Origin: Elusimicrobiota bacterium | GTDB taxonomy: Bacteria > Elusimicrobiota > Elusimicrobia > 2-02-FULL-39-32 | Assembly (NCBI GenBank): GCA_016193115.1 | Contig: JACPSV010000116.1 | Location: forward strand, 1 to 10,903 | Direction of reading: 5' to 3' | DNA length: 10,903 nucleotides | Part shown: positions 2,782-9,093 of the stretch, in pieces | Position numbering within the stretch: the stretch's first letter is position 1 | Layout of the letters: the number at the start of each line of letters is the position of its first letter | Translations under genes and position numbers: made by a program | Notes under the pieces: generated by a model | Database searches by the model: none | What the model saw: the letters and a program-made list of their open reading frames with translations, nothing else | Told to the model about the DNA's origin: nothing

Positions 2782-4125
2782 ATGCAATTTATTTCCAACA
2801 CGTCCCAAGAGAAAAAAGAAATCCTGGAAACGATCGGCGTTAACCGGTTGGAAGATCTTTTTGCCAACATTCCTAGAGATTCACTTTTTTCTCCAAAAAT
2901 AAACGGCGTTTTAAGGAAAGGGATCAGCGAGATGGAAGTCTCGCGCGAACTCCAATCTTTAGCGGACAAAAACCGTACGGTCGCGCAAATCCCGTCTTTC
3001 CTGGGAGCCGGAGCTTACCATCATTTCGTCCCCGCCGCGGTCCCCGCGCTCATTTCCCGAGGAGAATTCTTAACCGCGTATACTCCCTACCAACCGGAAG
3101 CCAGTCAGGGAACGTTACAGGCGACATTCGAATTCCAAACCATGATCTCAGAACTTTATGGGATGGACGTGGCCAACGCGTCCCTATACGACGGCGCCTC
3201 GGCTTTGACGGAAGCGGCGCTTTTGGCTGTACGGGAAACCGGCCGCAGAAAGATATTAGTTTCCAGAACCGTTCACCCGGAGTATCGCCAAACTCTCAAA
3301 ACTTATGGCAAGAGCCTGAACATCCGGGAAATCCCTTTTTTGAATGGAACCACTTCTCTGGATTCCCTGGAGAAAGAGTTGGACGATCAAACGGCCTGCG
3401 TGATCCTGCAAACCCCAAACTTTTTTGGGTCTCTGGAAGAAGGAGAAAAGATAGGCGCGATGACGCATGCCGCGGGATCTCTTTTGATCGTGAGCTCAAA
3501 TCCCATCTCTTTGGGAATTCTAAAGTCTCCGGGGAACTATGGAGCGGACATCGCCACCGGGGAAGGACAACCTCTGGGTATCTCTCTGAACTATGGAGGT
3601 CCGTACTTGGGACTTTTCTCCTGCAAAGAGAGATATTTAAGAAAAATTCCCGGACGGATCGCCGGCATGACGAAGGATCGGGATGGGCAAAGAGGATTTG
3701 TCCTGACGTTGCAGACGCGCGAACAGCATATCCGCCGCGAGAAAGCCACATCCAACATCTGTACAAACGAAGCGCTCATGGCTTTGGCCGCAACCATCTA
3801 TCTTTCCCTTCTGGGACCTAAAGGGCTGGAAGAAGTTGCTCTTCTCAATCTCAAGAATGCGCACATTCTGGCGGATAAAATCTCACAGGCGCCCGGCTTT
3901 GAATTAGCTTTTACTTCCCCATTCTTCAACGAATGTGTCGTACGATCCGCGCAGGATCCTTACCAGATTCAAGATCACTTGTCCCACAAGGGGATTATCG
4001 GCGGCTTTCCCTTAGATAAGTTTTACCCCGACCTGTCGGACTGCACTCTCTACTGCGCTACGGAAATGAATACGGAAAAGGAAATAGAATCTTTAGTGGC
4101 AGCGTTAAAACAGTTCCATGGATAA
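2782..4125 (+). CDS. gcvPA: Glycine dehydrogenase (decarboxylating) subunit 1, P-protein N-terminal half
   Basis: One half of the two-gene form of P-protein, the PLP enzyme that decarboxylates glycine and loads the aminomethyl group onto GcvH. The 447 residues match the usual length of subunit 1. Seen: GVNRLEDLFANIP near the N-terminus; the conserved block PSFLGAGAYHHFVP; TAYTPYQPEASQGTLQ; ELYGMDVANASLYDG; EGQPLGISLNYGGPYLG; and TREQHIRREKATSNICTN. Subunit 1 has the same fold as subunit 2 but lacks the PLP lysine. ATG 2782 lies three bases after the gcvH stop, and the end overlaps gcvPB by 8 bases, which suggests translational coupling of the two subunits. The split gcvPA/gcvPB form is common in thermophiles, Gram-positives and many deep-branching phyla, rather than the fused gcvP of enteric bacteria. 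Confidence 0.96.
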   Translation: MQFISNTSQEKKEILETIGVNRLEDLFANIPRDSLFSPKINGVLRKGISEMEVSRELQSLADKNRTVAQIPSFLGAGAYHHFVPAAVPALISRGEFLTAYTPYQPEASQGTLQATFEFQTMISELYGMDVANASLYDGASALTEAALLAVRETGRRKILVSRTVHPEYRQTLKTYGKSLNIREIPFLNGTTSLDSLEKELDDQTACVILQTPNFFGSLEEGEKIGAMTHAAGSLLIVSSNPISLGILKSPGNYGADIATGEGQPLGISLNYGGPYLGLFSCKERYLRKIPGRIAGMTKDRDGQRGFVLTLQTREQHIRREKATSNICTNEALMALAATIYLSLLGPKGLEEVALLNLKNAHILADKISQAPGFELAFTSPFFNECVVRSAQDPYQIQDHLSHKGIIGGFPLDKFYPDLSDCTLYCATEMNTEKEIESLVAALKQFHG

Positions 4126-5611
4126 GCGCGTTCCTCTGATATTCGAACAAACGGTTTCCGGGCGGCGGGGCACGACTTTCCCCAGTTCCGGAATTTCGGT
4201 TTCCGATGCGAAAAACCTAATTCCGGAACAGTTCCTTAGGACAGGAGGAGACGAAGTCTCACTCTCGTCCTTTAGGAAAGAGCCGGCTCTTCTCGCAGAA
4301 GTCTCGGAACCGGATGTCGTGCGGCACTATACGCGTCTCTCCCAACTTAACTTTTCCGCGGACACCCATTTTTATCCTCTGGGTTCGTGCACGATGAAAC
4401 ATAACCCGAAAATCAACGAAAAAATTTCTTCCTTGCCGGGTTTCACGCACGCGCATCCTTACCAACCCGATGAACAGATTCAAGGCACTCTGGAATTTTT
4501 GTGGCAACTGGAAAAAATGCTCTGCGAATTGACCGGTATGGACGCTTTTAGTCTGCATCCGGCCGCAGGAGCGCAAGGAGAACTCGTGGGATTGTTGTGT
4601 TGCCGGAACTATTTCGACTTTTTGGGAGAAAAAAGAAGTACGGTGATCGTGCCGGACAGCGCGCACGGCACGAACCCGGCCAGCGCCGCTCTGGCGGGTT
4701 ATTCGGTGATCCCCGTCCCTTCCAACAAGCGGGGCAGAATTGACAAAGATGCTCTGCGCAAATCTCTGAACAAAGACGTAGCCCTGGTGATGATCACCTG
4801 CCCCAATACGTTAGGTCTGTTTGAAGACGAGATCCAGGAAATTGCGGAAATCGTGCATGCCTGCGGAGCTTTGCTCTACATGGACGGCGCCAACTTTAAC
4901 GCGTTGGTGGCTCTGGCGGAACCGGCAAAACTGGGGTTCGACATGATGCACCTGAACTTGCACAAGACTTTTAGCGTGCCGCATGGGGGCGGAGGGCCGG
5001 GAGCGGGACCGGTCGGCGTCAGGAAAAATTTGGAGAAATTTTTGCCGGACTCCAGAATCGTCAAAGAGGGCGAGAAGTTCCGGACAGTTCCGGAATCTTC
5101 CCAATCCATCGGTCAGGTACGCTCTTTCTTCGGTAACACGGGCGCCCTCCTCCGCGCTTACGCTTATATCCTTTCTCTAGGACACGACGGCCTAAAATCG
5201 GTGAGCGAAAACGCGATTCTCAACGCAAACTACCTCTTGAAAAACCTAAAAGGCAATTTCAAGCCTTATGTGGATGAGCCCTGCATGCATGAGTGTGTCC
5301 TCTCCGCATCGGAGTCCGCCAAAGACGGAATCAAAACATTGGATATCGTGAAACGGCTGCTCGATTATGGATTTTACGCTCCTACGATCTATTTTCCTTT
5401 GATTGTGCCGGAAGCGATGATGATAGAGCCCACCGAAACGGAATCAAAAAAAACGTTGGATGCCTTCACGGAAGCGATGCGGGCGATTCTGCAAGAGTCC
5501 AAACAAAGTCCGGAAACGGTTAAATTGGCTCCGCACACCACTCCCGTGAGAAGACTGGACGAAGTGACCGCTGCGCGTAATCCGATCCTGCGATGGAAAC
5601 GTCACGGCTGA
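4118..5611 (+). CDS. gcvPB: Glycine dehydrogenase (decarboxylating) subunit 2, P-protein C-terminal half
   Basis: PLP-bearing subunit of the split P-protein. At 497 residues it is of normal length. Key motifs: FYPLGSCTMKHNPKINE (about 85-101), HPYQPDEQIQGTLE, LHPAAGAQGE, DSAHGTNPASA (about 180-190), TCPNTLGLFE, YMDGANFNA, and HLNLHKTFSVPHGGGGPG, where Lys 283 is the expected Schiff-base lysine. The C-terminus has PHTTPVRRLDE and AARNPILRW as in homologues. The stop codon (5609-5611) and the codons just before it lie inside the left arm of the large inverted repeat starting at 5603, so the last residues come from that element. Start ATG 4118 overlaps gcvPA. The frame is intact. Confidence 0.96.
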   Translation: MDKRVPLIFEQTVSGRRGTTFPSSGISVSDAKNLIPEQFLRTGGDEVSLSSFRKEPALLAEVSEPDVVRHYTRLSQLNFSADTHFYPLGSCTMKHNPKINEKISSLPGFTHAHPYQPDEQIQGTLEFLWQLEKMLCELTGMDAFSLHPAAGAQGELVGLLCCRNYFDFLGEKRSTVIVPDSAHGTNPASAALAGYSVIPVPSNKRGRIDKDALRKSLNKDVALVMITCPNTLGLFEDEIQEIAEIVHACGALLYMDGANFNALVALAEPAKLGFDMMHLNLHKTFSVPHGGGGPGAGPVGVRKNLEKFLPDSRIVKEGEKFRTVPESSQSIGQVRSFFGNTGALLRAYAYILSLGHDGLKSVSENAILNANYLLKNLKGNFKPYVDEPCMHECVLSASESAKDGIKTLDIVKRLLDYGFYAPTIYFPLIVPEAMMIEPTETESKKTLDAFTEAMRAILQESKQSPETVKLAPHTTPVRRLDEVTAARNPILRWKRHG

Positions 5612-6393
5612 GGGATACCCTTTTTTATTCTAGACGAGCCACTCGGGAAAACTTTTTTCTAGGGCTCCAAACTCGCCCCGCCGTACCGGCGGGGCTCAAA
5701 CAACTGGAGCCAAAGGAAGATGAAAGAAAAAAGTTTTCCCTCGTAGGCGGCTCGACTAGAATAAAAAAGGGTATCCCTCAGCCGTGGAGATGGGTAGAAT
5801 TCATTTCGGAAAAAGGTCTGGTGGCAATGGAAAGAGACAGGGATCTTTTTGAAAGAGTGAAGCAAAATAGGTTGGAACCTATTTTGCGTTTTTATAAGTG
5901 GGCAGGGGCGGCGATCTCTTATGGGAGAACGCAAAAATTAGACGGGACTCTGGAATCGGAATGGAGGCGGCAAGGGTTGGATATTGTGCGGCGTCCGACT
6001 GGCGGCGGGATCGTCCGGCACGGGAACGATGTTTGTTTTACGCTCATATGGAAAAAGGAGGATTCTGAGATTCCTTGGAAGATTGACGATTCTTATTGCG
6101 CTATACACCGCTGGATTCTGGACTCCATACAGAAACTGGGGATCCAATGCCAATCCTACGATACCAATGAAAAAATTAAAACGCAGGGTTGGTGTTTCCA
6201 AAATCCTGTCCGACACGACTTAATATCTGTAGATAAAAAGATTGTGGGAGGGGCGCAGCGCAGAGATCAAGAGACTGCGCTTCACCAAGGATCCATTCAA
6301 CTAAGTTTAGATCCATCTCAAATGCAAATTTTCCGAAAATCCTTTGAATCTATATTTGGGGTGAGACTCCATGTTTCTGCAACAACTGATTAA
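5593..6393 (+). CDS. LipM/LplA-family octanoyltransferase or lipoate-protein ligase with hairpin-encoded N-terminus
   Basis: BPL/LPL catalytic-domain protein that would attach octanoyl or lipoyl groups to GcvH-type lysines. Family homology begins at WRWVEFI (Trp at base 5785, residue 65 from ATG 5593). Then come RFYKW, RRPTGGGIVRHG (133-144), WCFQNPVRHD with Cys 201, KKIVGGAQRR with Lys 216, and LHQGSI (231-235). The Cys matches, as I recall, the position of the catalytic Cys of LipM octanoyltransferases, so LipM is favoured over an ATP-using LplA. The first 64 residues are encoded almost wholly by the inverted repeat and look non-homologous. No standard start codon lies between 5593 and GTG 5821; GTG 5821 or ATG 5827 follow a GGAAAAAGG but would drop the first conserved strand. 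The ATG at 5593 lies within gcvPB and has no clear ribosome site. The true start is uncertain, and the insertion may have damaged the gene. Confidence 0.8.
   Translation: METSRLRDTLFYSRRATRENFFLGLQTRPAVPAGLKQLEPKEDERKKFSLVGGSTRIKKGIPQPWRWVEFISEKGLVAMERDRDLFERVKQNRLEPILRFYKWAGAAISYGRTQKLDGTLESEWRRQGLDIVRRPTGGGIVRHGNDVCFTLIWKKEDSEIPWKIDDSYCAIHRWILDSIQKLGIQCQSYDTNEKIKTQGWCFQNPVRHDLISVDKKIVGGAQRRDQETALHQGSIQLSLDPSQMQIFRKSFESIFGVRLHVSATTD
5603..5786. repeat. 184-bp nested inverted repeat (large hairpin, MITE- or RPE-like)
   Basis: Arms read by eye, outermost first: 5603-5633 pairs with 5756-5786 (31 of 31 bases), one mismatch, then 5635-5640 with 5749-5754 (6). After a bulge, 5645-5660 pairs with 5725-5740 (16 of 16). 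After another bulge, 5663-5669 pairs with 5705-5711 (7), and finally the apical 5675-5683 with 5687-5695 (9) around a 3-base loop. That is about 69 base pairs in all. The element runs from the last codons of gcvPB to the point where lipM homology begins. It contains no transposase, and I see no clear target duplication or second copy in this window. As RNA it would be an extremely stable hairpin inside the operon transcript. It could be a miniature transposable element, an in-frame palindromic element of the Rickettsia RPE kind, or an mRNA-processing or attenuation site. Confidence 0.9.
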
Positions 6394-9026: not shown

Positions 9027-9050
9027 CAAGTAATTAGGCAAGTAATTAGG
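9027..9050 (+). repeat. Two tandem copies of a 12-bp unit, CAAGTAATTAGG
   Basis: Bases 9027-9038 and 9039-9050 are identical. The second copy lies wholly, and the first mostly, inside the left arm of the palindrome at 9032-9093. The right arm repeats only one and a half units, so the duplication extends past the palindrome on the left. It may mark how the palindrome arose, for example by slippage at its base. Confidence 0.75.
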
Positions 9051-9093
9051 GACAGCGCCCAATTGGGCGCTGTCCCTAATTACTTGCCTAATT
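9032..9093. terminator. Perfect 62-bp palindrome, probable bidirectional terminator or REP-like element
   Basis: Bases 9032-9062 are the exact reverse complement of 9063-9093, with the centre at CCCAATTGGG. The core GGGACAGCGCCC is GC-rich and the outer part is AT-rich (AATTAGGCAAGTAATTA). It fills most of the 85-bp gap between the stops of two convergent genes (9008 and 9094), where a two-way terminator is expected. There is no clean run of T after the GC core in either direction, so intrinsic termination is plausible but not classical. A repetitive extragenic palindrome of the kind mobilised by IS200-like (RAYT) transposases is the main alternative. Only one copy is present here. Confidence 0.75.

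Follow-up and report, generated by a model that had tools for sequence, protein, structure and literature searches.

We analysed a window of 10,903 nucleotides of Elusimicrobiota bacterium (GenBank assembly GCA_016193115.1, contig JACPSV010000116.1, forward strand), in which the local gene order is gcvT, gcvH, gcvPA, gcvPB, a gene for a lipM-like ligase and a gene for a branched-chain amino-acid permease. On the forward strand, gcvPB (497 aa) occupies 4118-5611 and the ORF of the lipM-like lipoyl protein ligase (266 aa) occupies 5593-6393. A palindromic element of 184 bp (5603-5786, same strand), recognised from its fold and from homologous copies, covers the end of the former and the beginning of the latter. 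The last two codons of gcvPB (HG) lie inside the element, and termination of gcvPB is now at the stop TGA 5609-5611 in the element arm.

A hairpin with exactly these coordinates had been described in a first-pass annotation, with 31 perfect terminal pairs and five stems totalling about 69 base pairs. The minimum free energy (MFE) fold of 5603-5786 alone reproduced the long hairpin and its perfect outermost 31 pairs, but it gave 71 pairs in six helices (31, 6, 2, 16, 7 and 9 bp from outside to inside) with two main internal loops, at -119.5 kcal/mol. Complementarity of the arms amounted to 97% over 38 nt (5603-5640 and 5749-5786). With 13 and 14 flanking bases, the hairpin reached -122.3 kcal/mol; dinucleotide shuffles averaged -61.1 (sd 4.9), which places it at z -12.5, and none of 200 was as stable. 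The outer arm, which differs in sequence between copies, consists of a 5' side (5603-5633) and its inverted complement on the 3' side (5756-5786), as judged by the fold and by comparison with relatives. Between them lies a conserved core (5633-5756), which was matched by our covariance models R1, R2 and R3. According to fold and alignment, the outer internal loop reads ACTC on the 5' side (5641-5644; family consensus CATTC) and TCGTAGGC on the 3' side (5741-5748; family consensus CTCATA). Farther inside, the MFE fold has stem 2 (5645-5660 with 5725-5740) and stem 3 (5663-5669 with 5705-5711). The alignment then places an inner internal loop of AACTC (5670-5674) and TCAAACA (5696-5702), and an apical hairpin of 9 bp with the loop TAC (5675-5695) stands between its two sides in the MFE fold.

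In relatives, lipM starts with M/V-E-T-I-T within the end of gcvPB (DNA of genomes G005 and G007; proteins P0002, P0003 and P0004). The window keeps an equivalent start that overlaps gcvPB, ATG 5593 (M-E-T), and the element begins directly after codon 3. Because ATG 5593 corresponds to the METIT/VETIT starts of the relatives, the element is located inside lipM, rather than between gcvPB and lipM as first annotated. The former view that it has no coding content also has to be corrected: the 266-codon frame crosses the element without a stop and runs on, through a Trp-Arg-Trp motif, into the ligase domain (residues 76-246, Pfam PF21948). Residues of about 4-65 are encoded by the element, and the last two bases of its 3' arm fall in TGG 5785-5787, which encodes a Trp of the WRW motif. 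The next in-frame ATG, GTG or TTG are codons 77 and 79, beyond a confident first strand at residues 64-73. In a structure model of LipM, built from an alignment of 28 sequences, residues 1-60 showed pLDDT values of 34-52 (means of ten), and the values were mostly above 90 from residue 61 on. This low confidence suggests that the element-encoded residues most likely form an additional, disordered tail at the N terminus of the predicted LipM. A search with the element-encoded peptide found no homologues. Two other LipM homologues (P0006 and P0007) bear the N-terminal peptide SFPRKRES at the same place; it is encoded by the repeat TCATTCCCGCGAAAGCGGGAATCC (codons read by eye), which is also present in the genome of the window. 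Judging from these sequences, the LipM N terminus is apparently a permissive site for inserts. Three further homologues (P0016, P0024 and P0005) have extra stretches before the WCF motif, which resemble further inserts. A start of a small ORF behind the Shine-Dalgarno-like AAAGGAAGATG in the window was dropped as a candidate, since several copies in the related genome G003 read AAAGGAACTATA there.

We compared the gcvPB-lipM junction with that of the relatives, a check proposed in the first-pass annotation. All six readable junctions (G002, G003, G004, G005, G007 and G008, from four other genera) were without the element. This absence argues against a local regulator of the gcv genes and against a cis-acting RNA selected for its effect on lipM expression, such as an attenuator, a stability element or a target of RNase III. 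An extremely stable hairpin in the operon mRNA and conserved internal loops that could contact protein or RNA would suit such a role, but the same element also stands beside other genes, by eye aroA/cmk, gcvT/gcvH, glmM and cyoE, and we consider the local RNA very unlikely. The suggestion that an RNA here controls downstream expression thus finds no support at this locus, where relatives do not keep the hairpin. The hairpin may have an effect on the mRNA. The junction of G008 (contig L023) carries a different short palindrome (CCCACCACCCGCTTGCG...AGCAGGTGGTGGG).

The element is dispersed over different loci in different genomes. Covariance model R2 of the core detected 3 copies in the genome of the window (G000), two intact and one at a contig end, and 11 copies in Elusimicrobia bacterium nzgw210 (G003), which belongs to another genus of the same family (E <= 5.1e-8; three weaker rows of G003, with E 6.9e-4, 0.33 and 0.84, were left out of this count). 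Covariance model search found no copies in seven other genomes of the family. In the genome_contigs collection, which possibly does not include the window's own genome, the core pattern gave 11 matches, all on 10 contigs of nzgw210, and a scan of 66 contigs, sampled from G000 and G003, with model R3 gave no additional copy. A covariance model scan of the phylum was positive in 11 of 340 genomes from 11 genera (E <= 0.01), nine of the genera being beyond the two main hosts; this is a lower bound, since 10 candidates were scored per genome. When nine of these 11 genomes were searched again (E <= 0.05), they gave 25, 14, 13, 7, 5, 3, 1, 1 and 1 matches. Moreover, R3 found three copies outside its training set, from three genera, in G245 (E 6.0e-10), G239 (9.4e-12) and G324 (3.4e-12). 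Intact copies are 173-193 bp long with terminal inverted repeats of 26-37 bp. Matches of R1 in G135 (E 0.0072, class-wide) and G006 (E 0.85) were dropped, because they were not recovered by R2.

The third G000 copy (C220, L003 1-230) starts at the contig end, and some 56 additional bases lie in its 3' half. One G003 copy (C97, L040/L046, near 2968-3260) is split by another palindrome (GTTCATGCTGATAAAGTC...GACTTTATCAGCATGAAC), seemingly a nested insertion. In G326 (L088-L110), the upstream flanks show, by eye, a few recurring hairpin-bearing modules (e.g. AACTTTCTTTG...CAAAGAAAGTT), which suggests composite units.

The fold of the element is maintained by compensatory changes. Of 68 loci given to the alignment, 60 passed E 1e-4, which is a part of the known copies. 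In these 60 aligned copies, 94.7% of the pair cells were standard pairs against 69.6% with shuffled partners, and 30 of 32 pairs had changes on both sides. Cells changed on both sides numbered 390 against 104.5 after shuffling, a count that none of the 500 shuffles reached. These shuffle figures are not to be read as probabilities, because the copies are related and had been aligned to fit this structure. When partner columns were slid by 1-3, pairing fell to 38-58%. The best-conserved unpaired stretches, CAtTC, AACTc, TCAaACA and CTCATA (capitals in at least 90% of the rows, small letters in 70-90%), are situated in the two internal loops. It is the centre that is conserved, a point missed in the first-pass annotation, and the 31-base terminus varies. 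These results also bear on a possible assembly artefact at a repeat. The genomes are fragmented and the third G000 copy does stand at a contig end, but the coding flanks are intact on both sides in the window, many copies come from separately assembled genomes including G326 (listed as 100% complete), and misassembly is not expected to produce compensatory changes, which makes this explanation hardly credible.

The reading frame is kept open at some of the other sites too. One G003 copy interrupts glmM in frame. To the left of the insert, this GlmM has a clear alignment with solved phosphoglucosamine mutases; to the right, the alignment is weak (10.8 bits). The insert is absent in all seven matched genomes of the family, with clear alignment on both sides, and the eighth (G008) had no match; these relatives have a shorter, variable linker at the insert position. 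Another G003 copy is fused in frame to the start of cyoE (name assigned by eye). A gene frame thus crosses the element in three recognisable genes (lipM, glmM and cyoE), corresponding to 3 of the 14 copies of G000 and G003, and the element seems to be read through as protein. Among the 11 intact copies of the two genomes, an open forward frame was present in five, against a shuffled mean of 1.4 (P 0.006), and the total number of stops was not reduced (91 against 95.3 expected, P 0.27). In 10 of these 11, the stop codon of a flanking ORF falls in an arm or no more than 10 bases away, as at aroA-cmk. Compact gene junctions together with tolerance would alone produce this pattern. In G326, none of the 23 copies fetched was seen inside a recognised gene, and the neighbours lie on either strand; four of these copies are crossed by ORFs of 101-144 aa without assigned identity. 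The cell would tolerate about 60 added residues as a disordered tail in LipM and CyoE, or as an enlarged variable linker in GlmM.

Taken together, we consider it probable that 5603-5786 belongs to a dispersed family of non-autonomous palindromic elements of Elusimicrobiota, a mostly uncultured phylum, and that this copy was inserted in frame after codon 3 of lipM. A mobile palindrome read in frame is, to the same degree, the likely general interpretation. One proposal of the first-pass annotation, a non-autonomous mobile palindrome, is well supported by the dispersed copies, the empty relatives and the in-frame copies in other genes. The outcome that it had named as contrary, no other copy together with conservation of the hairpin at this locus across many relatives, is not what we observed. 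As for the movement itself, we infer it from comparison between species, for no filled and empty site was seen within one species.

The arms of the element match within a copy and differ between copies. In the 11 intact copies, 6 of 354 arm pairs were mismatched, a count that is biased low because the arm ends were set by best pairing. Comparison of the nine copies of G003 gave 92% identity for the inner 12 arm bases and 84% for the core. Arm positions 13-30 were 45% identical without gaps; the same outer arms reach 78% when gaps and free ends are allowed, and we rely on the ungapped 45%. Copies from one master should keep the arms of the master. Either selection maintains the pairing as the sequences drift, or one arm serves as the template from which the other is rewritten. 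In the G003 copy at gcvT (C29), the outermost 12 arm bases, AAG GAG CAA TGA, are the end of gcvT, and gcvT of G000 ends similarly with AAA GGA GAA TGA. Since the arm of C29 reads as the gcvT end, host sequence seems, by this comparison, to have become an arm. In addition, palindromes with similar arms occur without any core. The window has a perfect palindrome of 62 bp (9032-9093) between two convergent ORFs, which has neither core nor spacer and does not itself count as a family copy; the stretch AGGGACAGCGCCC within it is similar to the motif in the outer arms of several members of the family. A similar coreless palindrome of 44 bp is found in G000 (L343 1594-1637), and one of 31 bp with similar arms is found in L311 of G003. 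The C29 arm and the coreless palindromes are anecdotes and not tests, and they are hints in favour of arm rewriting.

Other palindromic repeats accompany the element in both genomes. A further palindromic family, about 165 bp long (AACCCGAATA...GGAATTCGA...TCTCGGTTC...TATTCGGGTT), is present in G003 (L309, L316, L321, L327, L351, L356, L045, L046 and L052); 40 sampled contigs plus 10 named ones gave 10 pattern matches. Its arms likewise vary between copies yet pair, and one match (L045) is crossed by an open frame of 112 codons without assigned identity. In G000, contigs L340, L298, L345 and L302 carry inverted pairs of the repeat CGTCATTCCCGCGAAAGCGGGAATCC with spacers of 10-25 bases.

Terminal inverted repeats of 26-37 bp, the want of an own transposase and dispersed copies would fit a MITE of a classical DDE insertion sequence, which is moved by cut and paste at its terminal repeats with duplication of the target. 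However, the mean direct repeat at the 11 intact copies was 1.5 nt against 1.35 in permuted data (P 0.35), giving no sign of target duplication, and the terminal repeats are not common to the copies, unlike an expected transposase site; together these two facts disfavour DDE-type movement. Compensatory pairing throughout the core also speaks against a MITE, and we regard this explanation as quite improbable.

A second known mode is that of REPINs, units of two inverted REP-like ends and a spacer, which a RAYT (Y1 transposase) mobilises in trans. The element resembles them in its inverted ends, long hairpin, compensatory changes and dispersal (PMC3116915), and the coreless palindromes with similar arms and one G326 copy about 0.5 kb from a Y1_Tnp gene (L248) point in the same direction. 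On the other hand, the ends of REPINs are described as invariant and the spacer as variable (PMC3116915), and the element is reversed: its centre is conserved, its outer arm is the most variable part, and conserved REP ends are lacking. Neither Y1_Tnp nor RVT_1 was found in G000 and G003, both of which are about 80% complete, and the RVT_1 search in these two genomes gave an RT-linked reading no support. Overall, Y1_Tnp was found in four of the nine other element-bearing genomes and not found in seven of the eleven (G000, G003, G297, G307, G247, G301 and G245); several of those without a match are incomplete, and two of them, G297 and G245, are 93% and 99% complete. Of 37 Y1 matches, seven loci were scanned with R3, and the element was present at one. 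With no Y1 gene found in seven of eleven hosts, RAYT movement is disfavoured, and a REPIN-like unit is an unlikely description of this family.

Returning to the mobile palindrome read in frame, we can sketch how it might move. The element would move as a folded single strand (a DNA hairpin, possibly RNA), which might be recognised in trans via the two conserved internal loops. The outer arms would be kept matching by arm-to-arm correction through template switching within the hairpin, and such correction could allow arms to diverge from copy to copy and to incorporate host sequence from the flanks. Folded-strand movement with loop recognition and arm renewal by template switching is a possible but tentative model. 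A more specific version is an 'inside-out REPIN', in which a trans-acting enzyme would read the CATTC/CTCATA and AACTC/TCAAACA loops, and the arms would lie outside the recognition signal and be remade at each site by intrastrand template switching, sometimes from host sequence, such as the C-terminal gcvT codons in C29, or from a REP-like palindrome; we put this forward as speculative and rather doubtful.

Among known systems, the element works like Rickettsia palindromic elements (RPEs), a functional likeness drawn by description. In the accounts cited, RPEs are dispersed hairpin palindromes found between genes and in frame in genes for conserved proteins, whose products tolerate them (PMC2229807, PMC10969869), and Rickettsia is the best-known case of palindromes that frequently insert in frame (PMC2229807, PMC10969869). 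Our family has both traits, dispersed hairpin palindromes and in-frame insertion in conserved genes (lipM, glmM and cyoE), and differs in belonging to another phylum and in its greater length (173-193 bp against 105-146 bp for RPEs; PMC2229807). It also differs by near-perfect outer arms that are not the same in different copies and by a core whose pairing is maintained by compensatory changes in several genera and which contains two conserved internal loops. As to the peptide frame of RPEs, 5 of 11 intact copies are open here, with no evidence of one frame in all. Target duplication of RPEs is entered as '?' in PMC2229807. ERIC, YPAL and Correia repeats are small hairpin-forming repeats of similar size and mostly intergenic, and in-frame fusions are reported for ERIC and YPAL (PMC2229807); our comparison with them is by description, and no Rfam covariance model matched the window at its gathering threshold. 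Perfect inverted repeats inside coding genes of Nematomorpha mitochondria are thought to be actively maintained, but the part of that account used here does not present these coding palindromes as members of a single family built around a common core (PMC6649704). Our literature search gave no such element in Elusimicrobia, and no such class of mobile palindromes, among the matches listed.

The search outside the phylum was mostly negative. At E 1e-5, plasmids and phages yielded no relative of the window element. In viral contigs, an exact search with the 31-base terminus, which is the variable part, found nothing, the core pattern and a pattern with shorter loops had no match, and R2 matched none of 80 loci taken from 120 motif-bearing ones. 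R3 on 52 viral loci gave L133 (E 0.0085) and L173 (E 0.39), E values that are biased since the loci were picked by motif (11 of the 52 for a hairpin or a stricter motif). Contig L173 of the viral collection bears CTGCGGAACTCGCCCCC-GGGGGCTCAGACAGTCCTCG, close to the copies of G245 and G324, and its murB is nearest, among the named matches in the best 120 listed, to those of Azospira and other Betaproteobacteria. BLAST of pieces of L133, L163 and L173 found nothing in plasmids, and that of L173 nothing in phages. Similar sequences presumably occur in proteobacterial chromosomes. With the weak model score of L173 and loci that were picked by motif, the possible cross-phylum occurrence of the element, through the seemingly betaproteobacterial L173, is a lead only.

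Finally, to our knowledge, it has never been settled how in-frame palindromic elements move. The present family, which belongs to another phylum and has compensatory changes and hairpins marked by conserved loops, gives a concrete target in the search for a recognition protein. Arms that match within copies and differ between them make arm correction directly testable. If the lead is true, the same inner loop in the betaproteobacterial L173 would extend the family to a cross-phylum system.
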